From Acidobacteriota bacterium (lineage in GTDB: Bacteria; Acidobacteriota; Terriglobia; Terriglobales; Acidobacteriaceae), in NCBI GenBank assembly GCA_019241535.1, contig JAFAWX010000060.1, positions 1-42,462 of the forward strand: DNA of 42,462 nt, in the 5' to 3' direction. The notes beneath the pieces were generated by a model. The model was given only the letters and a program-made list of their open reading frames with translations, ran no database searches and was not told the DNA's origin. A program made the translations under genes and the position numbers. Positions 1 to 17,590 of this stretch are shown here, in pieces (position 1 is the first letter of the stretch; every line of letters begins with the position of its first letter).

Positions 1-906
1 CAGCTTGCGAACGGTAGCCGTCGGAACCGCCCCGCCGCTATTGGTAATGTAGCGCAGGGCAGGAGGTCTGGTCTCGCCGAGACCCGAGGTGTGATGCACC
101 AGTCCGGCCCAGACCAGCGGTACTCCGGCAAGCCCGGTGATATTTTCGCCGGCTAATGCGCGGACGATCTCGGCCGGGAAGCGATAGTGAAACAGAACAA
201 TGGTGGCCGAGTGCTCGATGACGGTTAGGAGCTGGTTCAGTCCGTAATCGAAACTGAAGGGAAGGATCGAAAGAATGCGCTCGCGGCTGCTAATCTCGAG
301 GTACTTGGAGACGATACGCGAACCGGCAAGCAGGTTGCGGTGCGAGAGCATGACACCGCGAGGCTTGCCGGTCGATCCAGATGTGTAGAGAATTCCGGCA
401 AGATCCTCGCCGATGGCGCTCGAGGCCTGCGGCTGTTCGGTTCCACGCATAATGGACGCGACCACCGGGATGTTCTGCTTCACGCCGTCTGCGGTGTCAT
501 CGATCAACAGCAGGCAGCGCAGAGATTCGACCCCTCCGACGTGCTCGCGAATCCGCTCCCATTCGCGCCCCGATGTGATCAGATAGCTCACCCCGCAATC
601 GGCAAGGATGTGGGCCACCTGGTGGCCAAGCAAAAGCGAATTAACATCCACAAAGACGCCGCCGGCCATGGTGATGGCAAAGATCGCGGCCGCTTCTTCA
701 AGCGATTTCGGCAGGTAGACGGCAACCCGGTCGCGCCGTTTGAGCCCGCCCTCTTGGAGCAGATGGGCACAGTGGCTTACTTGGGCGTGGAAGCTCCGGT
801 AGTCGACCGCGCGACGCCCGCCCACCAGGTCGACGATAGCTTCCTGTGACGGCGAGGACGAAGCCGATTGTTCCAGTAGATGATGTAAAAGATAAGGCTG
901 GGGCAT
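1..906 (-). CDS. AMP-forming acyl-CoA/acyl-ACP ligase, exosortase-A-associated type (C-terminus cut by window edge)
   Basis: I translated this from the minus strand: an open frame runs from an ATG at 906 to the window edge, giving the first 302 residues of an adenylating enzyme. The ANL-superfamily A3 loop YTSGSTGKPRG is at residues 174-184. The N-terminus (LLHHLLEQ), the GGVFVDVNSLL and QVAHILADCGV segments resemble the acyl-CoA ligases linked to exosortase A polysaccharide loci. Family knowledge: such enzymes activate a carboxylic acid as acyl-AMP and pass it to CoA or a carrier-protein phosphopantetheine. The gene starts 16 bp after the acyl carrier protein gene, so loading of that ACP is the simplest role; the acid is unknown. 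The C-terminal swivel domain with the catalytic lysine lies outside the window. Confidence 0.85.
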   Translation of the reverse strand, partial: MPQPYLLHHLLEQSASSSPSQEAIVDLVGGRRAVDYRSFHAQVSHCAHLLQEGGLKRRDRVAVYLPKSLEEAAAIFAITMAGGVFVDVNSLLLGHQVAHILADCGVSYLITSGREWERIREHVGGVESLRCLLLIDDTADGVKQNIPVVASIMRGTEQPQASSAIGEDLAGILYTSGSTGKPRGVMLSHRNLLAGSRIVSKYLEISSRERILSILPFSFDYGLNQLLTVIEHSATIVLFHYRFPAEIVRALAGENITGLAGVPLVWAGLVHHTSGLGETRPPALRYITNSGGAVPTATVRKL

Positions 907-922
907 GGCGGCAGAAACCCGG

Positions 923-1186
923 CTATTTGACCGACGACGCGCTGAGCTTTTCAACCAGCCGCGCAATCGAGGCGATCGTTTCGAAATTCTCGTCCGTGAG
1001 GTCCGAGGCGCTCAGCTCCACCGAAAACTCCGGCTCAATAAAACCCACCACGCCAAGCACGGCGAGCGAATCGAGAACTCCGGCCAGCGGATCGAGATCC
1101 CCCAGACCCTTGACTTGAAGGGCGGGATACTGCCGGAAGATGTAATCGCGAATCTTATCTTCAATGGTCATGGGACATTGTGTCAT
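923..1186 (-). CDS. acyl carrier protein
   Basis: An 87-residue acidic protein with the fold pattern of a phosphopantetheine carrier. The attachment motif is D39-S40-L41 in a GVLDSLAVLG context, and hydrophobic helix positions follow. The size is normal for a discrete ACP. A second ATG six codons in (1171) is an alternative start; neither has a clear ribosome binding site, and the upstream one keeps the gene 6 bp from the FkbH-like gene. It lies between that gene and the acyl-AMP ligase on the same strand, so the three look like one operon in which the ligase charges Ser40 and the GNAT-like protein unloads it (inference). It is clearly distinct from a fatty-acid-synthesis ACP, which would sit beside fab genes. 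Confidence 0.85.
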   Translation of the reverse strand: MTQCPMTIEDKIRDYIFRQYPALQVKGLGDLDPLAGVLDSLAVLGVVGFIEPEFSVELSASDLTDENFETIASIARLVEKLSASSVK

Positions 1187-1192
1187 CAGTAC

Positions 1193-2428
1193 TCACACCG
1201 AGAGCGGAACTGCGTCCACCTGCAAAGAATTCAGAATCGTCCCGGCAATGGCCGGGCAGGGCGCCTGGCGGACCGCTCGCTCGCTCAGTCCCTCGACGCG
1301 AAGGCGGAACAGCTGGTCTCCACCGGAAGCCGGCTCGCGCGACAGAGCCTTGAAAAATTTGAGCATCACCTGATTGTCCCGGCCGGCGATGAAAGGCACT
1401 TCGATCCATTCCGCCCCGCGCTGCTCGGCCACATTCGCGAGCCATCCCAGTACGGCATGTTCTACCTGCCGGCCGAGCACCGGGCAGCTCAGAAACAGCA
1501 GCCCCACGCGCATTACGTTCTCTTCCATCCCAAACGTGACCGCGCCCGAAACTCCATAGTCACCAAAACGGTCGCGCACCCGAATGGCCCATGCTTCTCC
1601 CCCGGGCCTGTCGGCCGCCATTGCCTGAATTCCCCCTTCCATCCATTTGCGATTCGGCAGGTTGACGAAATGGGTGGTATGGCGGACGACATTGACCGCC
1701 TGCTGCTCGTCCTCGGGCGCGAGCGGCGCCGTCCGGATCTCGGTTTCAAGCGTGGCCAGGAACTGCTCGAGTGCCGACGATGTGCTCTCTGCCCGTTTCG
1801 CCAGAACCGTAACCGGCAGGCGTTCCCATTGCGCCAAGACGAATTCGGCCACTCGTTTGAGTCCCGCGGGCGAAAACGGGACGTGGCCCAAACGATCGCC
1901 GGAGGGATTGAAACAATTCTCGGGCATTCGCGCGGCCTCAAACTCCGTCCAGGGAATCACCAGGTGGCGCTGCTGCCGCCGCAACTCGGCCATGATCTTA
2001 TGCTCGGCGACCCGCAACCCATTGCCAAGGAACTTTAGATCGTAGGCCCCGCGTCCCGAGGGACACATAAAGACCGCGAGCCGGAGGCGGGCGACACGGC
2101 CGAGGACCTCGAGAAATTCTTCGCTGCGCTTGCGAAACGCTAGCACACCGGCCTCTTCAGCTGTCCGGCCTTGAGTGCCGGCGGCGAGTTCAAAACGGAT
2201 GAGGTCTTCGAGGCGCAAAAACAGCACCACTCGAGCGGGCGTGTCTTCAGGAATAGCCGAGCCGGGATCGAGCAAAAAAGTATGCAGCTGGTTGTAAGGA
2301 ATTGAGCTCAGGGAAACTTCTGCGGTCCGGGGGCCGAGTGAATTAAGAAAAGGGGGTTCGAGAGCAGCCGTATAAAAACTGCTGGCCACCACAAGGACAC
2401 TCGGCGGGCAGGAGTTGGTGTTTGGCAT
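1193..2428 (-). CDS. FkbH-like protein without the HAD domain (SGNH-like N-terminus plus GNAT-like acyltransferase)
   Basis: 411 residues. The N-terminal ~200 residues match the SGNH-like region of long FkbH proteins (VVASSFYTAAL near the start; VVLFLRLEDLIRF around 67-79; RLAVFMCPS near 115). The C-terminal ~170 residues match the FkbH acetyltransferase-like end: the linker FLATLETEI, then VRDRFGDYGVSGAV, then LSCPVLGRQVEHAVL and AEQRGAEWIEVPFI. In normal FkbH proteins a HAD phosphatase domain with a DxDNTLWGG motif lies between these parts and makes glyceryl-ACP from 1,3-bisphosphoglycerate. Here that motif and the whole domain are absent, with no frameshift, so glyceryl transfer by the usual route is not expected. 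First gene of the operon with the ACP and ligase; likely moves an acyl group to or from the ACP (inference). Confidence 0.75.
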   Translation of the reverse strand: MPNTNSCPPSVLVVASSFYTAALEPPFLNSLGPRTAEVSLSSIPYNQLHTFLLDPGSAIPEDTPARVVLFLRLEDLIRFELAAGTQGRTAEEAGVLAFRKRSEEFLEVLGRVARLRLAVFMCPSGRGAYDLKFLGNGLRVAEHKIMAELRRQQRHLVIPWTEFEAARMPENCFNPSGDRLGHVPFSPAGLKRVAEFVLAQWERLPVTVLAKRAESTSSALEQFLATLETEIRTAPLAPEDEQQAVNVVRHTTHFVNLPNRKWMEGGIQAMAADRPGGEAWAIRVRDRFGDYGVSGAVTFGMEENVMRVGLLFLSCPVLGRQVEHAVLGWLANVAEQRGAEWIEVPFIAGRDNQVMLKFFKALSREPASGGDQLFRLRVEGLSERAVRQAPCPAIAGTILNSLQVDAVPLSV

Positions 2429-2780: not shown

Positions 2781-5700
2781 ATGCCATCTGAAATCAACGC
2801 CGGCTACGAGCTTTCTCCGCAACAGAAAAAGGTTTTTCGCCAAAGCTCGGAAAATGAAACCGCCGGCCTCGGCATATTGCTTGAGGGAACGCTCGATTCC
2901 GGAGAACTCCGGCGGGCGCTCGAGGCGCTGGTTTCGCGTCATGAGATTCTGCGAAGCGGCTTTCAGCGGCGCACGGGCATGCGCTTCCCTTTTCAGGTCG
3001 TGCACGAACGGGCCGAGCTTTCCTGGGAGGAAATCGACCTGAGTGCGCAAGCCGCAGCCGAGCAGGAGGCGGCGATCGATGAAATGCTCGTTGACGGCTC
3101 GGAAATCGACAGCGAGAACGGCCCCGTGCTCCATGGCCGTCTGGTAAAACTCGATCGAAACCGGAGCGTGCTGGTGCTGGTCTTCTCCTTGGCCGCGACC
3201 GACGGTAGAAGCCTTAACATCATTTTCTCTGAGATCGCCCGTATCTACGGCGGCCAGGCGCTTGCTGAAGACCTGGTGCAATATGCAGATTATTCCGAGT
3301 GGCAGAACGAGCTACTGCGCGAAGAAGGAGAACAGGCGAAAAAAGGTGCCGAATTCTGGCAGCAGGAATCGCTTCCCGCGCTCGAACTTCCGCTCCACAG
3401 ACGGCAACGCCTTAATTCCAGCTCTTGGCAGTCGGTGCCGGTTTTGCTGCCTTCGCCGATTCATGACTCCGGCTCGGCAGAGGCGTTTCTGTTCGCCTGC
3501 TGGCAGGTTTTTCTGTGGCGTTGGAGCGGCCAGCAGGAGTTCGTCATCGGCTACGTGAGCGACGGGCGAAGTCATGAAGAATTCGCCGCCGGTCTAGGCC
3601 CGTTTTCGAAGGTCCTGCCCATACCATGCAAATTCGATTACCCCCAAACGTTTCAAGATTTGCTGGTGGCGGGCGAAAACGTACGCATGGCGGCTCTCGA
3701 ATGGCAGGATTACATTCCGCCCGACCGGATTGCCGAGCCGCGAGCGGTTAATTTTCTGTTTCAGCGGCTCGCGGAGCCGACCACTTCGCGCGGTCTTCGC
3801 ATTTCGGAATTGCGGCGCTGGTTGCCTGCGGCCGCCAGCAGCCTCGAACTGCGCTGCTCGGTCGCTTCCGGCTGCTTGTCTCTCGCTCTTGATTTTGATG
3901 CCTCGCAATTTGACCGCGAGCTGATCGAGCGATTTCGCGATTCCTTTTCGCTTTTGGCCGGCGCTGCCTGGGCGAATCCCTCCTCGGAGCTCGAAGCGCT
4001 GCCCATCACCCCGCCCGCTGAGCACCGCCGAGTGGTTGAAGAATTCAATCGCACCTCTGCTCCTTACCCGGATGCATGCTCGATACACCAACTGTTTGAG
4101 GACCAGGTGGCCCGAGATGGCGACCGCACGGCGCTGCGCTGCGCAGATAAGCAGCTGAGTTTTATTGAGCTCAACCAGGAGGCGAACCGCATCGCCCATA
4201 TGCTCCGCCGCCACGGCGTTGGTCCGGACGTTCCGGTGGCGCTCTGTATGGAACGTTCGGCGGAAATGATTATCGCGCTGCTCGGAATCTTAAAGGCGGG
4301 CGGCTGCTACATCCCCCTGCTTCCCGACAGTCCCAAGCCGCGGCTGGAGCACCAGCTGGCTGAGACCGGGGCACCCGTAGTCATAACCGACGAGAAGCAT
4401 CTCGGCCACTTGCCTGCCTTCGCGGGGAAAATCCTATGCCTCGACCGCGACCGTGCCTCGCTAGCCGAGGAGCCGGCGTCTAACCCGAAGGCCGATGTCT
4501 CGCCCGAAAACCTCGCCTATGTGATCTACACGTCCGGTTCAACCGGGATTCCCAAGGGAGTTGCAGTACCTCACTCCTGCCTGGTGAATTACAGCTACGC
4601 CCTCTGCCGCCGTCTCGAGCTCGAAAAGCACCCCGAGGGCCTCCAATTCGCGACCGTTTCTACGCTGGCTGCCGACCTCGGCAATACTTGCATTTTCCCG
4701 GCTCTCATCTCCGGAGGATGTCTACACGTGATCGGCTATGAAATGGCCATGTCGCCTTTTCTTTTTGCCGATTACGCCGCCCGCCATCCAATCGACGTGC
4801 TGAAGATTACGCCCTCTCATCTGTCCACACTGCTGAACTCCGATGCCGGGTCGTCCCTGGTTCCGCGTCAATATCTGATTCTCGGGGGAGAGGCTGTGCG
4901 CTGGGACCTGGTCGAGCGGGTAAAAAAGCTGAGCGCGGTGACCATCTTTAACCACTATGGTCCGACCGAGGCGACCGTAGGATGCTGCATGTTCAAGCTC
5001 GACCGAGAGGTAGCAGGCAAGTGGGAGACCGCAACCGTACCCATCGGTAGGCCGATTGCGAACGATCAGATCTACATCCTCGATTCGCGCATGCAACCGG
5101 TGCCGGCCGGCGTGGCGGGAGAACTGTTCGTGGGCGGCGCGGGAGTCGCCCGCGGCTATTTGAAGCAGCCGCGGCAGACCGCGGCAAGCTTCGTGCCTAA
5201 TTCTTTTTCTGGAGACGCGAGGGCGCGGCTTTATCGCACCGGCGATCTGGCGCGTTATTTGCCCGACGGAAATGTGGAGTTTCTGGGGCGCATCGACCAG
5301 CAAGTCAAAATTCGGGGCTTCCGGGTAGAACCGGCCGAAATTGCCGCAGCCTGCAAGCGCCATCCGGCAGTCGAGCAGGCGGCGATTGTGCCCTACGACG
5401 GCAAATCGGGCGAAAAACGGCTTGCTGCTTACCTCGTGGGTAGCGGCCGGCGCGAAGATCTGCGAGCTTTTCTGGCCGCCAATCTGCCGGATTACATGGT
5501 ACCTGCAAGCATCGCCTGGATCGATGCCTTGCCCCTTACCCCCAACGGCAAGCTGGACGTGCGAGCCCTGCCTTTGCCCGAGCAGCAGGCGGCGCGCGAA
5601 CTGGTCTTGCCGCGGACGCCCGAAGAGGAGAAGCTCGCCCGCATCTGGGAGGAAGTGCTGAAGCTCGACACCATCAGCGTGAACGACAACTTCTTCGAAC

Positions 5701-5948
5701 TTGGCGGTCATTCGCTGCTGGCGACGCAGATCATCTCGCGAATCCGCAATGCCTTCCGGCTGCAGATCTCGCTCGAAGTCTTTCTCCGCCATCCCACCAT
5801 TGCCGAACTGGCCGAACAGATTCGGCAATCGGAACCGGCGGCCGGCGACCAGGAAGAAATGGCAAAGCTGCTCAGAGAGCTCGAAGGGCTGTCGGACAAG
5901 GAAGCCGAAAGACTACTAGCCGCGGAACTCGAAAAAGAAGGAAATTGA
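2781..5948 (+). CDS. single-module non-ribosomal peptide synthetase, C(degenerate)-A(Asp-like)-PCP
   Basis: 1055 residues from the ATG at 2781, chosen because TAGGAG lies about 15 bp upstream; the frame is open further upstream (from 2667) but that extension looks non-coding. Residues ~8-430 are a condensation domain with RHEILRSGF and YADYSEW, but the HHxxxDG motif reads SLAATDG (136-142), so the catalytic His is missing. The adenylation domain (~455-955) has every core motif: YTSGSTGIPKG (583-593), YGPTE (726-730), YRTGDLARYLPDG, NGKLD (K924). Specificity positions by alignment to GrsA read D632, L633, T636, K675, I700, G702, H725, V733, G734, K924: DLTKIGHVGK, nearly the published aspartate code. 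PCP: GGHSLL with Ser978. No thioesterase, reductase or epimerase. It probably holds aspartyl-S-PCP for a separate acceptor (inference). Confidence 0.9.
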   Translation: MPSEINAGYELSPQQKKVFRQSSENETAGLGILLEGTLDSGELRRALEALVSRHEILRSGFQRRTGMRFPFQVVHERAELSWEEIDLSAQAAAEQEAAIDEMLVDGSEIDSENGPVLHGRLVKLDRNRSVLVLVFSLAATDGRSLNIIFSEIARIYGGQALAEDLVQYADYSEWQNELLREEGEQAKKGAEFWQQESLPALELPLHRRQRLNSSSWQSVPVLLPSPIHDSGSAEAFLFACWQVFLWRWSGQQEFVIGYVSDGRSHEEFAAGLGPFSKVLPIPCKFDYPQTFQDLLVAGENVRMAALEWQDYIPPDRIAEPRAVNFLFQRLAEPTTSRGLRISELRRWLPAAASSLELRCSVASGCLSLALDFDASQFDRELIERFRDSFSLLAGAAWANPSSELEALPITPPAEHRRVVEEFNRTSAPYPDACSIHQLFEDQVARDGDRTALRCADKQLSFIELNQEANRIAHMLRRHGVGPDVPVALCMERSAEMIIALLGILKAGGCYIPLLPDSPKPRLEHQLAETGAPVVITDEKHLGHLPAFAGKILCLDRDRASLAEEPASNPKADVSPENLAYVIYTSGSTGIPKGVAVPHSCLVNYSYALCRRLELEKHPEGLQFATVSTLAADLGNTCIFPALISGGCLHVIGYEMAMSPFLFADYAARHPIDVLKITPSHLSTLLNSDAGSSLVPRQYLILGGEAVRWDLVERVKKLSAVTIFNHYGPTEATVGCCMFKLDREVAGKWETATVPIGRPIANDQIYILDSRMQPVPAGVAGELFVGGAGVARGYLKQPRQTAASFVPNSFSGDARARLYRTGDLARYLPDGNVEFLGRIDQQVKIRGFRVEPAEIAAACKRHPAVEQAAIVPYDGKSGEKRLAAYLVGSGRREDLRAFLAANLPDYMVPASIAWIDALPLTPNGKLDVRALPLPEQQAARELVLPRTPEEEKLARIWEEVLKLDTISVNDNFFELGGHSLLATQIISRIRNAFRLQISLEVFLRHPTIAELAEQIRQSEPAAGDQEEMAKLLRELEGLSDKEAERLLAAELEKEGN

Positions 5949-6119: not shown

Positions 6120-7145
6120 TTACGCCTGGCGGTCACCACGCAGAAAGCTTTTGACCGACCGGTCGATCCAAAGAGTTTCATCGGCGGCCTCAAGCAGCAC
6201 ATTCTCCATTCGGCGCTGGCTGCGTTCCGAGCAGGCATTATGAAGGTTGTCGCCAATTATCCGGAGCATCGAATTCAGTACGAAGATATGAAGAAGACTT
6301 GAATCCAACCCGTCTCCGTAGCTTTCGACGAAATTGAGCGCCAGAATCTCAAGCGCCTTGCCGGAATATCTCAGCTTGGTCGCGAGCAGCGAGATGTAAG
6401 CGAGAAACGCAGAGACGTCCCGGTATACCGGCGCCTGTCCGCAATAAGCGCCGAAATCGATGATTCGAGGCTGCACTCCGTCAAACAGGATGTTCTGGGG
6501 GATGAAGTCTCCGTGGGCGGCCGCTAGGTGCACCTGAACCCCATGGAGTGACTGGCTGATTGCCGCAGCGCGGTGGCGCACGTGCTCGAGCACGGTCGGG
6601 GAAAGCCCTACTTGCCGGGAGCGACACACGTTGCGCTCAAGGGCGCTGACGTAGTGATGATGGTGATGGGCTTCGGATTGCCATGCTGTGCTGCCGTGAA
6701 AGGTCCTGATCCAATCTCCGAGCGCGCGGCCAATTTCCCCCATGATCGTGAGGTTTTTCCAGCCCACGGCGACATTTGCGTGCCAGTGGAGTTTCTCTTC
6801 CAGAGAAACACCGCGAACGCCGCTCACCAGCATGATGCCTTCTTTTTCGCGGAAGAGAATCGGGTCCGGGATGGTGCCGGCGAGCACCTCACCCGCCCTG
6901 CGGTGGACTTCATCGAGTGCTGAAAACTCGTGGCGCAGGCATCGGCGGAATACTTCGTCGTTGCCGCGAGCGCATTTAGCTACCGCAAACTGACCATCGG
7001 CAGAAGGTACGCGGTAAATGTCGAAGTGGGGACGTCTGACGATGCGTTCCCAGAGTTTTACGTCAGGCAGCAGCGGGGTTCCGAGAGCGAAGCCGCGTTG
7101 CTCCCGTGCGATATGCCCCTGCGCGAGTGTTAAACTCTGCTCCAA
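6120..7145 (-). CDS. APH-fold small-molecule kinase (aminoglycoside phosphotransferase family)
   Basis: About 341 residues. The catalytic loop HGDFIPQN and the metal-binding IIDFGAYCG are near the C-terminal third, followed by YRDVSAFL, the usual order in APH/choline kinase-like enzymes. Upstream, FAVAKCARGN gives the nucleotide-binding lysine. A run of five natural histidines sits in the middle. No ATG is available at the 5' end. I chose TTG at 7145 because GGGGGAGG precedes it by 4 bp; TTG at 7199 is an alternative adding 18 residues. Family members phosphorylate sugars, amino alcohols or antibiotics. Beside carrier-protein genes and a GT2 enzyme, and in view of similar kinases in exosortase polysaccharide loci, I infer a sugar or lipid-headgroup substrate rather than drug resistance. 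Confidence 0.75.
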   Translation of the reverse strand: MEQSLTLAQGHIAREQRGFALGTPLLPDVKLWERIVRRPHFDIYRVPSADGQFAVAKCARGNDEVFRRCLRHEFSALDEVHRRAGEVLAGTIPDPILFREKEGIMLVSGVRGVSLEEKLHWHANVAVGWKNLTIMGEIGRALGDWIRTFHGSTAWQSEAHHHHHYVSALERNVCRSRQVGLSPTVLEHVRHRAAAISQSLHGVQVHLAAAHGDFIPQNILFDGVQPRIIDFGAYCGQAPVYRDVSAFLAYISLLATKLRYSGKALEILALNFVESYGDGLDSSLLHIFVLNSMLRIIGDNLHNACSERSQRRMENVLLEAADETLWIDRSVKSFLRGDRQA

Positions 7146-7232
7146 CCTACCTCCCCCGCGGAGCAGTGTAGCGCAAAAGGCCAGGAAAATCTCAAACAAA
7201 TTGCGGTAAGTTACTGTCCCATTGACACTTCC

Positions 7233-7441: not shown

Positions 7442-8260
7442 TCAGCCCTGACTTTCCTGGTGCTCTACGGCCGCGGGAGCGGCAGATTTCTCGGGACGGG
7501 GGAGGGCGGCGACGGGTTCGGTTATCGAGTATTTCAGCAAACACCAGAGCGCGCGAAAGCCGTCTTTCCAGCCGATTTTTTTGCCTTCCTCATAGGTACG
7601 CCCCCAGTAGCTGATGCCCACCTCGTAGATCCGCAGCCGACGTTTGGCTATTTTGACCGTAATCTCGGGCTCGAAGCCGAAGCGGTCTTCTTCAAGCGGA
7701 ATTGCCTGGATGATTTCCCTGCGGAAAGCCTTATAACAGGTCTCCATGTCGGTGAGATTCAGGTTGGTGAGGCAGTTTGAAACCAGCGTGAGAATCGAGT
7801 TGCCTACGGAGTGCCAGAAGTAAAGCACCCGGTGGGGCCCACCCCCAAGAAAGCGGGAGCCGTAAACGACATCGGCCTTGCCCTCGAGCAACGGACCGAG
7901 CAGCGTCGGGTACTCGGTAGGATCGTATTCGAGATCCGCATCTTGAATGATCACGAAATCGCCGGTAGATTCCTGGATACCGCGGCGAAGGGCGGCACCC
8001 TTTCCCAAGTTGTGCGGCTGGAGAAGTACCCGCAGTTGGGGATGTATGCCCTCGAGCTCTGTGAGGATCTCCCGCGATCCATCGCCGGATCCGTCATCGA
8101 CGCACAGCAACTCAATGTCGAGCGACAGGGCCAGCACACGCTCGACTACGGTCGCAAGCGTATGGCGCTCGTTATAGACCGGCATTACTACCGAGACTCT
8201 CACGAATAGACAGTGTACAGAAGGCTCAGTTTTTTGCGGAAGAGCAAGAAAGGCCTGCAT
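7442..8260 (-). CDS. family 2 glycosyltransferase (polyprenol-phosphate sugar transferase type)
   Basis: 272 residues. The GT-A fold is clear: SVVMPVYNE at residue ~23, [20 protein letters not shown], then the metal-binding [10 protein letters not shown] and [10 protein letters not shown], and [11 protein letters not shown] further on. This is the DPM1/GtrB-like soluble type that moves a sugar from a nucleotide donor to a polyprenyl phosphate at the inner face of the membrane. No C-terminal membrane domain is present. The true start may be GTG at 8200, where homology begins, since the ATG at 8260 has no good ribosome binding site. It shares orientation with the upstream carrier-protein operon but is 242 bp from the kinase gene, so it is probably transcribed separately. 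Confidence 0.85.
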
Positions 8261-15175: not shown

Positions 15176-15712
15176 ATGGCATGGCTGCGCAACTTATTCG
15201 GACGAGGAGGAAAGATGGCGGCGTTGACGGCGGGGACTCGGGCTCCGCAGTTTGAGTTACCGGCAATCGACGGATCAGGATTCTCGCTGCACACAGCCCT
15301 GACCCGCGGCCCGGTTCTGGCTGTCTTTTTTAAAAATTCCTGCCCCGTGTGTCAGTACGCGCTTCCCTATTTCGAACGGATTTACAAGACTTACGGCGGC
15401 AACAAACTGACGATTGTTGGCGTCTCGCAGAACGAGCGCAAAGAGACACTGGATTTTACCCGGAGGTACGGCATCAGCTTCCCGGTTCTTCTGGACGATA
15501 CAAAAAAGTTTGCCGCGTCAAACGCCTACGGACTTACCAATGTCCCCACCGCTTTCTGGATCGCCCGGGATGGTGCGATTGAGATCTCCAGTGTGGGCTG
15601 GGTGAAACAGGACTTTGAAGGGATGGCGCGAAAGGCGGCAGACGCGGGCGGGGAAAAACCGAGCTCGATCTTCCAGGCTGCCGAACAGGTGCCGGACTTC
15701 CGCCCTGGTTGA
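15176..15712 (+). CDS. TlpA/AhpC-type redoxin
   Basis: 178 residues. Thioredoxin fold with APQFELPAIDG, LAVFFKNSCPVCQYALPYF (redox pair CPVC), FPVLLDDTKKFAASNAYG and the cis-Pro region NVPTAFWIARDG. Family role: thiol-disulfide exchange or peroxide reduction. No signal peptide is evident, so it is probably cytoplasmic. The ATG at 15176 is 15 bp from the mutY stop; a second ATG at 15215 follows a strong GAGGAGG and may be the real start, giving 165 residues. Probably cotranscribed with mutY, which fits an oxidative-damage theme. Confidence 0.85.
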   Translation: MAWLRNLFGRGGKMAALTAGTRAPQFELPAIDGSGFSLHTALTRGPVLAVFFKNSCPVCQYALPYFERIYKTYGGNKLTIVGVSQNERKETLDFTRRYGISFPVLLDDTKKFAASNAYGLTNVPTAFWIARDGAIEISSVGWVKQDFEGMARKAADAGGEKPSSIFQAAEQVPDFRPG

Positions 15713-15726
15713 GGTTCCAGAAATTG

Positions 15727-15743
15727 ATCCGCAGGTTGCGGAT
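15727..15743 (+). terminator. hairpin after the redoxin gene
   Basis: A perfect 7-bp inverted repeat, ATCCGCA-GGT-TGCGGAT, starts 14 bp after the redoxin stop codon. Only TTTC follows, so it is a weak intrinsic terminator or an RNA-stabilising hairpin. Confidence 0.35.
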
Positions 15744-15889
15744 TTCGCTACAACCACGACTACTCCGCATTCATGATCGTGCCGGGTTCAGAGCTGTTGC
15801 GAGTTATAGGCGGCGCAGGGCTCGACACGGATGGTCGCGCAATTCCCGTAAAATATAAGCTTTTTCCGAATTTTCCGGGGTTCTTCTCT

Positions 15890-17590
15890 ATGGGAAAGGT
15901 GCTCGCGCTCGTCCTTTTGGTGATTCTGCTCGTGTCAACGGTTTTGATCGTCGTACCCTCAAGCGGCCAGACCAGACACGCTCCCGCGGCTTCTGCGCAT
16001 CTTGTACCGGCTGCCATGGCGGCGCTTGAGAAGATCGATCCCGAACATATCCGTGCCCATGTGCGCTTCCTCGCGCACGACCTTCTGGAGGGTCGCGGTA
16101 CCGGACAGCGGGGCGGGGATATCGCCGCCGAGTACATCGCGACCCAGTTCTGGCTGCAAGGACTTAGGGCAGCCGGTGACAATGGGACATTCTTCCAGAA
16201 AGTTCCCATGGTCGGGATCACTCCTGCGCCGGAGACTACATTTGCTTTCATTTCTACCAGAGGCGAATCGCTGGTGCCCAAGCCGCTTGCAGAATACGTT
16301 GCCTATGACCAAAGCCAGCGGCCGGAGAACGACATTGAGGCCGAGATGGTATACGTGGGATACGGCATCGAAGCTCCCGAATACCATTGGGACGACTACA
16401 AAGGCAGCGATGTGCGCGGCAAGGTATTGCTGATGCTGGTCAACGAGCCCACCTCGAACGACCCCAACTTTTTCAAGGGCCGAACGCTGACGTACTACGG
16501 CCGCTGGTCGTACAAATTCGAGGAAGCGGCACGCAAGGGGGCGGTTGGCGCGCTTCTCGTTCATCAGTCGGAAATGGCGAGCTATCCCTGGGAGGTGGTG
16601 CGAAACTCGAACTCGGGGGAAAAAGCCTTTCTCGAGGGTGGTCGAACCCAGCTGAAGGCCGCCGGCTGGATCCATTGGCAGGTAGCACGGCAGCTGGCCC
16701 AAAACTCGGGAATGGATCTAGAGAAGATGCTGGCCGACGCCCAATCGGCGAATTTTCGCCCGGTGTCTTTGCCCTTCAAGCTGAAGGCCCACATGGTCAG
16801 CCGGGTCAGACCCTTTTCAGCCAATAATGTTCTGGCCGTTCTGCCCGGGGCCGACGCGAATGTGCGCGGTGAAATGATGATGTACACGGCTCACTACGAC
16901 CACCTCGGAATCCGTCCCGATATGCCCGGGGACAACATTTATAACGGCGCTCGCGACAATGCCACCGGCTGCGGCATTCTGCTGGAGCTGGCGCGAGCTT
17001 TCTCGGAAGCTCGACAGCGTCCCCACCGTTCCATTCTGTTCGCTTCGGTGACGGGCGAAGAGCAGGGGCTGCTCGGTTCGGAATACCTGGCGAAACATTC
17101 TCCCGTTGCACCAGGAAAAATATCTCTGGATCTCAACTTCGACGATGTTCCTCCGCTCGGTTCTCCCGAGGAGGTGGAAGTTTCCGGCGCGGAACGCACC
17201 TCGTTTTATCCTACGGTCGAGGCTGTGGCCAAGGAATTCCACCTGGCGATTCGGCCCGATTCCCACCCCGAAGCCGGACATTACTATCGCTCCGACCACT
17301 TCAGCCTGGCGCGGGCAGGCGTTCCCGCCTTTTCGATCAACGAAGGAATGAAGTACAAGGGCCATAACACCGAGTGGGGAATGCGACAGGCCGAGGAGTA
17401 CACGAACCAGCACTATCACCAGCCCAGTGATGAATACAGCACCAGCATGGATTTCACCGGCGATGCTGCGGTTGCCCGCTTTGCCTTTGCGCTGGGATGG
17501 ACAGCGGCAACCCAGCCCCAGCTGATTGCCTGGCAGAAAGGGGATGAGTTCGAGTCGGTGCGGCGGCAGAGCCAGGATTCCGGCCAATGA
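15890..17590 (+). CDS. secreted M28 family zinc peptidase with PA domain
   Basis: 566 residues from ATG 15890, chosen because a signal peptide (MGKVLALVLLVILLVSTVLI) begins there; the frame is open to 15773 but that extension looks untranslated. A PA-like insert (GKVLLMLVNEP, GAVGALLVHQ) spans ~170-290. The metallopeptidase domain carries the M28 ligands in order: HYDHLG, ARDNATGCG, TGEEQGLLGS, LDLNFDDV and YRSDHFSLARAGVP. Family role: aminopeptidase or carboxypeptidase acting outside the cytoplasm. Stands alone; the next small gene follows 85 bp later. Confidence 0.92.
   Translation: MGKVLALVLLVILLVSTVLIVVPSSGQTRHAPAASAHLVPAAMAALEKIDPEHIRAHVRFLAHDLLEGRGTGQRGGDIAAEYIATQFWLQGLRAAGDNGTFFQKVPMVGITPAPETTFAFISTRGESLVPKPLAEYVAYDQSQRPENDIEAEMVYVGYGIEAPEYHWDDYKGSDVRGKVLLMLVNEPTSNDPNFFKGRTLTYYGRWSYKFEEAARKGAVGALLVHQSEMASYPWEVVRNSNSGEKAFLEGGRTQLKAAGWIHWQVARQLAQNSGMDLEKMLADAQSANFRPVSLPFKLKAHMVSRVRPFSANNVLAVLPGADANVRGEMMMYTAHYDHLGIRPDMPGDNIYNGARDNATGCGILLELARAFSEARQRPHRSILFASVTGEEQGLLGSEYLAKHSPVAPGKISLDLNFDDVPPLGSPEEVEVSGAERTSFYPTVEAVAKEFHLAIRPDSHPEAGHYYRSDHFSLARAGVPAFSINEGMKYKGHNTEWGMRQAEEYTNQHYHQPSDEYSTSMDFTGDAAVARFAFALGWTAATQPQLIAWQKGDEFESVRRQSQDSGQ

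Follow-up and report, generated by a model that had tools for sequence, protein, structure and literature searches.

The window, that is, the whole stretch of 42,462 nucleotides that was analyzed, corresponds to an entire contig (C128) of the Acidobacteriota genome G000 and starts inside the gene of an AMP-forming ligase. At this end of the contig, three consecutive genes encode a relative of FkbH, an enzyme of antibiotic pathways, that lacks the HAD phosphatase domain, a stand-alone ACP and the ligase, and the gene of a one-module NRPS is read divergently from them (Table 1). The ACP is matched by PF00550 just below the cut-off (E 9.3e-4, 19.9 bits, cut-off 20.8) and by NF052616 also below its cut-off (2.9e-8). 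The C-A-T NRPS is 59% identical to the C-A-T NRPS of a related cluster in genome G452, described below, and likely belongs to the same cluster as the three genes. Near the NRPS gene, the window also encodes an APH-type kinase-like protein (6120-7199, minus strand) and a family 2 glycosyltransferase (7442-8260, minus strand).

Table 1 Features of the window considered in the analysis.
Feature	Position	Strand	Basis
HAD-less FkbH protein, NEX + GNAT, 411 aa	1193..2428	-	Intact ORF; TIGR01686 match to C-terminal half only; alignment; model
NEX domain (SGNH-like, FkbH N-terminal), residues 5-204	1817..2416	-	Fold matches to 3slr and GDSL hydrolases
GNAT domain, FkbH type, residues 213-380	1289..1792	-	TIGR01686 positions 170-319; GNAT folds, Z up to 13.0
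Cys315 codon, in SCPVLGRQVE	1484..1486	-	Invariant in the seven HAD-less proteins of alignment A1; putative acyl-carrying residue
AMP-forming ligase, 5' part, cut by the contig end	1..906	-	TIGR03098 positions 1-296; start codon at 906 chosen
Stand-alone ACP, 87 aa, putative donor carrier	923..1186	-	Weak PF00550 match; 75% identical to the G452 ACP
One-module NRPS, C-A-T, divergent from the HAD-less gene	2781..5948	+	Pfam C, AMP-binding and PP-binding

The two best matches to TIGR03098 in G000 were found at positions 1-891 of C128 (profile positions 1-296) and at positions 2-607 of another contig, C8 (profile positions 314-516). As the two halves of a ligase are thus found on C128 and C8, the cut gene very probably continues on C8 with the intervening bases missing, the junction being deduced from these matches. 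After the ligase, C8 encodes a PLP decarboxylase (TIGR03099, below the cut-off) and a cupin-8/JmjC-like protein. It also encodes an ABC-2 permease, an ABC ATPase whose C-terminal domain is of the Wzt type, and an NRPS truncated by the contig end. The first module of this NRPS consists of a C domain, a unit containing the FkbH N-terminal extension (NEX) and a HAD region (TIGR01686 positions 5-145 only) and a T domain, with neither an A domain nor a GNAT domain, and the second module is C-A-T. G000 also encodes two full-length FkbHs with intact motifs in a seemingly polysaccharide gene region of contig C184 (L040:7852-9756 and 15229-17013). As their neighbors, read by eye, are asparagine-synthase-like, FemAB-like and of polysaccharide type, and as no NRPS lies in the 20 kb inspected, these two FkbHs were considered less likely partners of the HAD-less protein.

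The preliminary description of this DNA regarded the 411-residue protein as FkbH-like with the HAD domain cleanly missing and the reading frame intact, and our analysis supports this view. TIGR01686, the NCBIfam model of FkbH, matches residues 213-364 with profile positions 170-319 of 323 (E 7.9e-21, 74.5 bits, below the cut-off of 146.65), leaving the HAD half of the profile (positions 1-169) unmatched, and the DxDxT HAD domain is absent. In a MAFFT alignment that included seven full-length FkbH proteins as a comparison, the spacing between the NEX and GNAT anchors is 42 residues in the window protein and 42-46 residues in nine HAD-less proteins, whereas it is 208-213 residues in full-length FkbH; a HAD stretch of about 166 residues is gone from the open reading frame, which is itself undamaged. 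The NEX of the window protein shows 27-31% matches to the NEX of FkbH units embedded in NRPSs.

An AlphaFold2 model, for which the seven HAD-less sequences served as input (mean pLDDT 75.3, pTM 0.64), presents two domains. For residues 5-204, the top match is the N-terminal domain of 3slr (BF1531, chain residues 18-217; Z 13.8, rmsd 3.7, 187 aligned), with GDSL-type hydrolases also matching, while residues 229-380 resemble GNAT enzymes (best Z 13.0). Both the SGNH-like N-terminal and the acetyltransferase-like C-terminal regions that had been recognized in the sequence are therefore recovered as folds. As the confidence of the model is moderate, we relied on the folds and not on side-chain geometry. 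A comparison with AlphaFold had been proposed as a way to reveal a divergent HAD fold; the model contains no unaccounted residues forming one, and a divergent or hidden HAD within the 411 residues is ruled out by the model, the fold matches and the anchor spacing. A chance deletion or a pseudogene is likewise ruled out, as the architecture is common to six other Acidobacteriota genomes. Pfam assigned no family to the window protein at E <= 1, the other HAD-less proteins are likewise without Pfam families, and a sequence search of the PDB with the window protein gave weak, unrelated matches only.

In terms of FkbH membership, the window protein has NEX, lacks HAD and has a GNAT domain in which the conserved Cys lies in SCP and not SCR. 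The FkbH-like glyceryl transferase/phosphatases (TIGR01686), which transfer glyceryl from 1,3-bisphosphoglycerate onto a carrier according to PMC8949500 and PMC7489565, share the N-terminal NEX and the C-terminal GNAT but differ in possessing HAD and in having Arg where the window protein has Pro after the conserved Cys. As HAD is absent, the window protein is unable by itself to perform the phosphatase step of FkbH and, as had been claimed, cannot make glyceryl-ACP in the usual way.

To describe the distribution of this architecture, both the protein and the family profile were used as queries. The window protein found a match at E <= 1e-5 in 37 of 396 genomes of the phylum, and two of these matches, those of the window and of G112, span both domains within frames of about 420 residues. 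Among 250 genomes of the same taxonomic family, an evenly drawn sample, TIGR01686 has matches in 107, and seven carry a HAD-less FkbH, defined by a frame of 416-460 residues in which the match begins at profile position 169-176: G000 (the window), G112, G400, G452, G490, G502 and G559. The proposed profile search for HAD-less FkbH proteins thus yielded six further Acidobacteriota genomes with the same architecture. Matches starting beyond profile position 180 (G499, G487, G440, G415 and about fifteen weaker ones) were not counted, their frames being of 286 residues or fewer or lying at contig ends. Within the genus, three of eight genomes have the protein.

Identity to the window protein is 50% for the G452 protein and 23-25% for the remaining members of the alignment of the seven proteins (A1). 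Despite this range of 23-50%, the Cys, Asp-Arg and Asn columns of A1 are invariant. When 397 genomes of the order were searched with a profile built from A1, scoring up to four candidates per genome, six of the seven were found at 518-593 bits with near-full coverage (G559 was absent from the result), and the next best match reached 119 bits. A nine-residue signature taken from A1 was scanned through 84,980 species, with one genome for each, and gave 24 pattern matches, nine of which were confirmed as relatives: the six other Acidobacteriota proteins and three beyond the phylum, from Burkholderia multivorans WS-FJ9 (L069), B. ubonensis LMG 20358 (L070) and the actinomycete Catellatospora methionotrophica (L072). 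All nine lack an intact HAD. Both Burkholderia proteins are without HAD, and the Catellatospora relative has a HAD-sized stretch without the motif (read by eye) and a KAS III domain in the same protein. A scan of the genome collection with a pattern from the window protein alone gave 52 pattern matches, none of which was confirmed. Three further candidates were rejected as HAD-less FkbH, L042 for a frame of 348 residues that begins with the HAD motif, L043 for a frame of 169 residues and L044 for a frame cut by a contig end. HAD-less FkbHs are a real subfamily that is found in Acidobacteriota and Burkholderia. Among the literature matches listed, which mostly exclude subscription journals, we recognized no report on HAD-less FkbH outside the work on the bur locus discussed below, and a search of similar coverage found none on FkbH in Acidobacteria.

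GNAT enzymes carry a loop signature, R/Q-x-x-G-x-G/A, and the Arg of SCR occupies the position of its first residue. This Arg follows the conserved Cys in 30 of 30 full-length FkbHs with an intact DxDx[TS], which were picked by the HAD motif and by a Cys motif with the next residue free, and among which close relatives remain. All ten HAD-less or HAD-decayed proteins have SC[PTS] instead. This count is partly circular, as the two Burkholderia proteins and the Catellatospora protein were found by a pattern demanding SC[PTS]; the seven Acidobacteriota proteins were found by the absence of HAD, so the independent count is seven of seven. The loss of Arg would fit a donor without a phosphorylated glyceryl group.

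The trees were based on 40 sequences, with eight near-duplicates dropped and one too-short row omitted from the NEX tree. The GNAT tree (32 sequences) contains a branch (98/96), one side of which comprises all nine HAD-less proteins and that of Catellatospora. The NEX tree (39 rows) has a branch (92/84) that sets the nine HAD-less proteins apart, with the long-branched full-length row L033 among them; here, the Catellatospora NEX groups with full-length FkbHs, away from the HAD-less proteins. The Catellatospora gene (L072:8915-11503) encodes NEX, a decayed HAD and a GNAT with SCPVLGRQVE, fused to the KAS III domain; directly downstream of this fusion lies a full-length FkbH with intact motifs (L072:11454-13394).

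Units like that of the C8 NRPS, with NEX and HAD but no GNAT, were found by the TIGR01686 search of the 250 genomes in frames longer than 1,000 residues in G000, G400, G490, G547 and G559; partial HAD-side matches in G424, G440, G552 and G585 were excluded. A sixth unit, in G112, is too decayed for this search. Four of the five genomes detected by the search also carry a HAD-less protein (hypergeometric P 1.1e-6, a value that treats relatives as independent, which they are not). The fifth, G547, is 65% complete and showed no HAD-less protein among its matches. Counted the other way, five of the seven Acidobacteriota genomes with a HAD-less protein have an A-less C-NEX-HAD-T module without GNAT; in G502 (84% complete), no acceptor module was found. 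The HAD-less gene and the unit lie on the same contig in G112 and G400 and on separate contigs in G490 and G559, and in G000 they would be next to each other if the contigs join as we propose.

The motif I Asp residues are kept in five of the six units, including that of the C8 NRPS, and lost in G112. The motif IV Asp pair, present in full-length proteins as, for example, FIDDNPLE, is lost in all six, which read ARQ, SNN, SSS, SAN, SGD and ETD at this position, and the embedded HADs therefore look decayed. In the NRPSs of cystomanamide and vioprolide (PMC8949500, PMC9581180), an embedded FkbH takes the place of an A domain, flanked by C and T; this is also the arrangement of the C8 module. The C8 unit differs in lacking GNAT and the motif IV Asp pair and in having a separate HAD-less protein alongside.

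The closest known counterpart is the bur locus of malleicyprol biosynthesis. In L069, a synthetase with a C domain, a 254-residue gap holding NEX, a T domain and a thioester reductase is followed by a KARI gene and then by the genes of the HAD-less FkbH, a PLP decarboxylase and a carrier-AMP ligase. The gene order of L070 matches, with its KARI read from the frame only. Both Burkholderia loci thus combine a C-NEX-T-reductase synthetase, a HAD-less FkbH and a carrier-AMP-ligase fusion, the carrier part of which is matched weakly by PF00550 (E 0.0093 and 0.023, 16.6 and 15.4 bits, below the cut-off of 20.8). In both genomes, the HAD-less FkbH occupies the BurH position of the bur-like locus. As BurF, BurG (KARI-like) and BurH are consecutive in name, we took the HAD-less gene to be the counterpart of BurH, and the gene order suggests that the HAD-less FkbH is BurH.

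BurJ and BurH are reported in PMC12304814 to charge the T domain of a noncanonical NRPS-like module of BurF with an alpha-hydroxy acid, a step that PMC12790350 also reports. The former source further describes an overlooked BurF domain between C and T which, in AlphaFold 3 predictions, resembles the FkbH-like N-terminal extension and was named NEX, and raises the possibility that the phosphatase and acyltransferase subdomains were lost from BurF. The parts available of PMC9359912 and PMC7496086 yielded no passage on BurH. The window cluster shares with the malleicyprol system the HAD-less FkbH (in the BurH position there), a carrier and AMP ligase beside it and an A-less C-NEX-T module. It differs in that the ACP and the ligase are separate genes, in that the acceptor module retains a decayed HAD and in that the synthetase is an NRPS without the reductase arrangement of bur. 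The window protein itself resembles BurH in its NEX-GNAT architecture without HAD, in grouping with the Burkholderia proteins in the GNAT clade and in its adjoining carrier and AMP ligase. New features of the present case are its occurrence in Acidobacteriota, an ACP encoded by a separate gene, a proposed acceptor module with a decaying HAD, and a signature for the class.

Carriers and ligases were compared between the genomes. An ACP and a ligase are found in G000 and G452, and G400 has a ligase. In G559, a ligase is accompanied by a RuBisCO-like protein (L057:188-1675, minus strand; PF00016 above the cut-off) with a possible C-terminal carrier (PF00550 19 bits, below the cut-off of 20.8). 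A weak RuBisCO-like match was also observed in G400 (L053:12179-13237, minus strand), between an RpiB gene, an AMP ligase and the NRPS; both RuBisCO-like proteins neighbor a HAD-less FkbH. No ligase-ACP pair was found beside the HAD-less gene in G112 or on the short contigs seen of G490 and G502. G112 instead encodes a complete FkbH with a C-terminal carrier (L038:8232-10238, minus strand), 18 bp from the HAD-less gene and facing it, and this FkbH-carrier could supply carrier-bound glyceryl to the HAD-less protein of that genome.

Judged from the best BLAST segments, the clusters of G452 and of the window are orthologous: identities are 75% for the ACP, 68 and 74% for two parts of the ligase, 68% for the decarboxylase, 64% for the cupin-8 protein, 69% for the ABC ATPase, 74% for the ABC permease and 61% for the large NRPS. 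The cluster is split over contigs C3 and C31, and the order of ACP, ligase, decarboxylase and cupin is conserved. However, the FkbH unit of the G452 NRPS is complete (304 bits, exceeding the cut-off; DCDHTLW, FIDDNPLE and SCRALGRK), so that the T domain of this NRPS seems equipped with a loader of its own. Either both loading routes coexist in G452 or the HAD-less protein serves another acceptor there. The preliminary description had named a separate HAD protein gene beside the HAD-less one in relatives as evidence against its interpretation, and this is in part what is seen. G112 has the FkbH-carrier gene, six genomes, the window's own included, have an NRPS with an embedded NEX-HAD unit whose HAD looks decayed, and G452 has a complete embedded unit; the interpretation is thus supported in part.

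Taken together, the window protein is not by itself a working FkbH and most likely works like BurH. The reading we favor, and consider probable, is a trans-acting acyl shuttle, derived from FkbH, with the adjacent ACP as donor and an A-less NRPS module as acceptor; its substrate, the direction of transfer and the Cys intermediate are deductions. In this scheme, the ligase, spanning the window and C8, would activate an acid and load it onto the ACP. The PLP decarboxylase and the cupin-8 protein of C8 would probably tailor the ACP-bound acid, possibly into an alpha-hydroxy acid, and the HAD-less protein, perhaps via Cys315, would pass the acyl group on from this carrier to the T domain in the C-NEX-decayed HAD-T module. 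The NEX domains may aid docking of the HAD-less protein and the NRPS. The preliminary description had suggested an acyltransferase using the ACP encoded next door; an acyltransferase is the best-supported role, with the ACP as the likely donor, but the likely acceptor is the T domain of the NRPS.

The acyl shuttle is favored by the retention of NEX and GNAT with the loss of HAD, by the single GNAT clade shared with the Burkholderia proteins, by the same three parts in both Burkholderia loci and by the reports of BurF T-domain loading. It is further favored by the row of HAD-less gene, ACP and ligase and the gene order kept in G452, and by the acceptor-like modules, their lost motif IV Asp pairs and the SC[PTS] count. 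Against it stand the complete FkbH unit of G452 alongside the HAD-less protein, ACP and ligase, which is one reason why we hold our confidence down, the genomes in which no ligase-ACP pair or, for G502, no acceptor was seen, the identification of BurH from gene order and the position of the Catellatospora NEX among full-length FkbHs.

Two other explanations should be considered, each of which we regard as unlikely. The HAD-less protein could provide GNAT in trans to a NEX-HAD unit, so that the two together load glyceryl from 1,3-bisphosphoglycerate onto T as a split FkbH. The co-occurrence of GNAT-less units and HAD-less proteins (four of five against seven of 250, P 1.1e-6 with non-independent relatives) and the motif I DxD retained in five of six units would be expected from such a division. 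However, the motif IV Asp pair is gone from every unit and motif I from that of G112, the Arg after Cys is missing from all HAD-less proteins, G452 has the HAD-less protein despite its complete unit, and Burkholderia has it though its module is without HAD. An explanation of similarly low probability is a tailoring acyltransferase that uses the ACP, or CoA, as acyl donor and, like ordinary GNATs, acylates a hydroxyl or amine in the peptide product, with no role in NRPS loading. The GNAT fold agrees with this, and G452, whose module carries a complete FkbH of its own, would be accounted for. Nonetheless, an ordinary GNAT would need neither the FkbH NEX nor the invariant Cys, both of which are retained, and the clustering of the window protein with the Burkholderia proteins in the GNAT tree and the pairing with A-less NEX-containing modules (five of seven Acidobacteriota genomes and two of two Burkholderia genomes) argue against it. 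A non-catalytic relic or scaffold left from a full FkbH is very improbable. The absence of HAD and the partly altered GNAT loop signature agree with it, but seven proteins from Acidobacteriota and two from Burkholderia keep the architecture, and the seven aligned in A1, at 23-50% identity to the window protein, have invariant Cys, Asp-Arg and Asn columns.

Beyond the window, the acyl-shuttle reading can be extended, tentatively and with less confidence than we give to the shuttle itself, to HAD-less FkbHs as a dedicated class of trans-acting alpha-hydroxyacyl transferases for A-less NRPS modules in at least two phyla. The modules that accept the acyl group might then represent stages, from a complete FkbH (G452), through loss of GNAT with a decaying HAD (G000, G400, G490, G559 and G112), to NEX only (Burkholderia), and the change from SCR to SC[PTS] might mark the switch from a phosphoglyceryl to a non-phosphorylated acyl group. 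If this is true, what looked like an oddity becomes a recognizable class of enzymes that load unusual acids onto A-less NRPS modules. The signature would then find systems whose acceptor module is otherwise read as an FkbH (glycerate) module, with the product mispredicted. Such systems would also allow a study of how, in an assembly line, an in-cis loading domain comes to be replaced by one acting in trans.

A last observation concerns the ligase and the decarboxylase. Their closest NCBIfam models are TIGR03098 and TIGR03099, the pair known from exosortase A systems; here, however, both score below the cut-offs and are set in an NRPS cluster. These two genes (window 1-906 and L041:2-1944, that is, C8 of G000) may hint at the role that the TIGR03098/TIGR03099 pair plays in exosortase systems.
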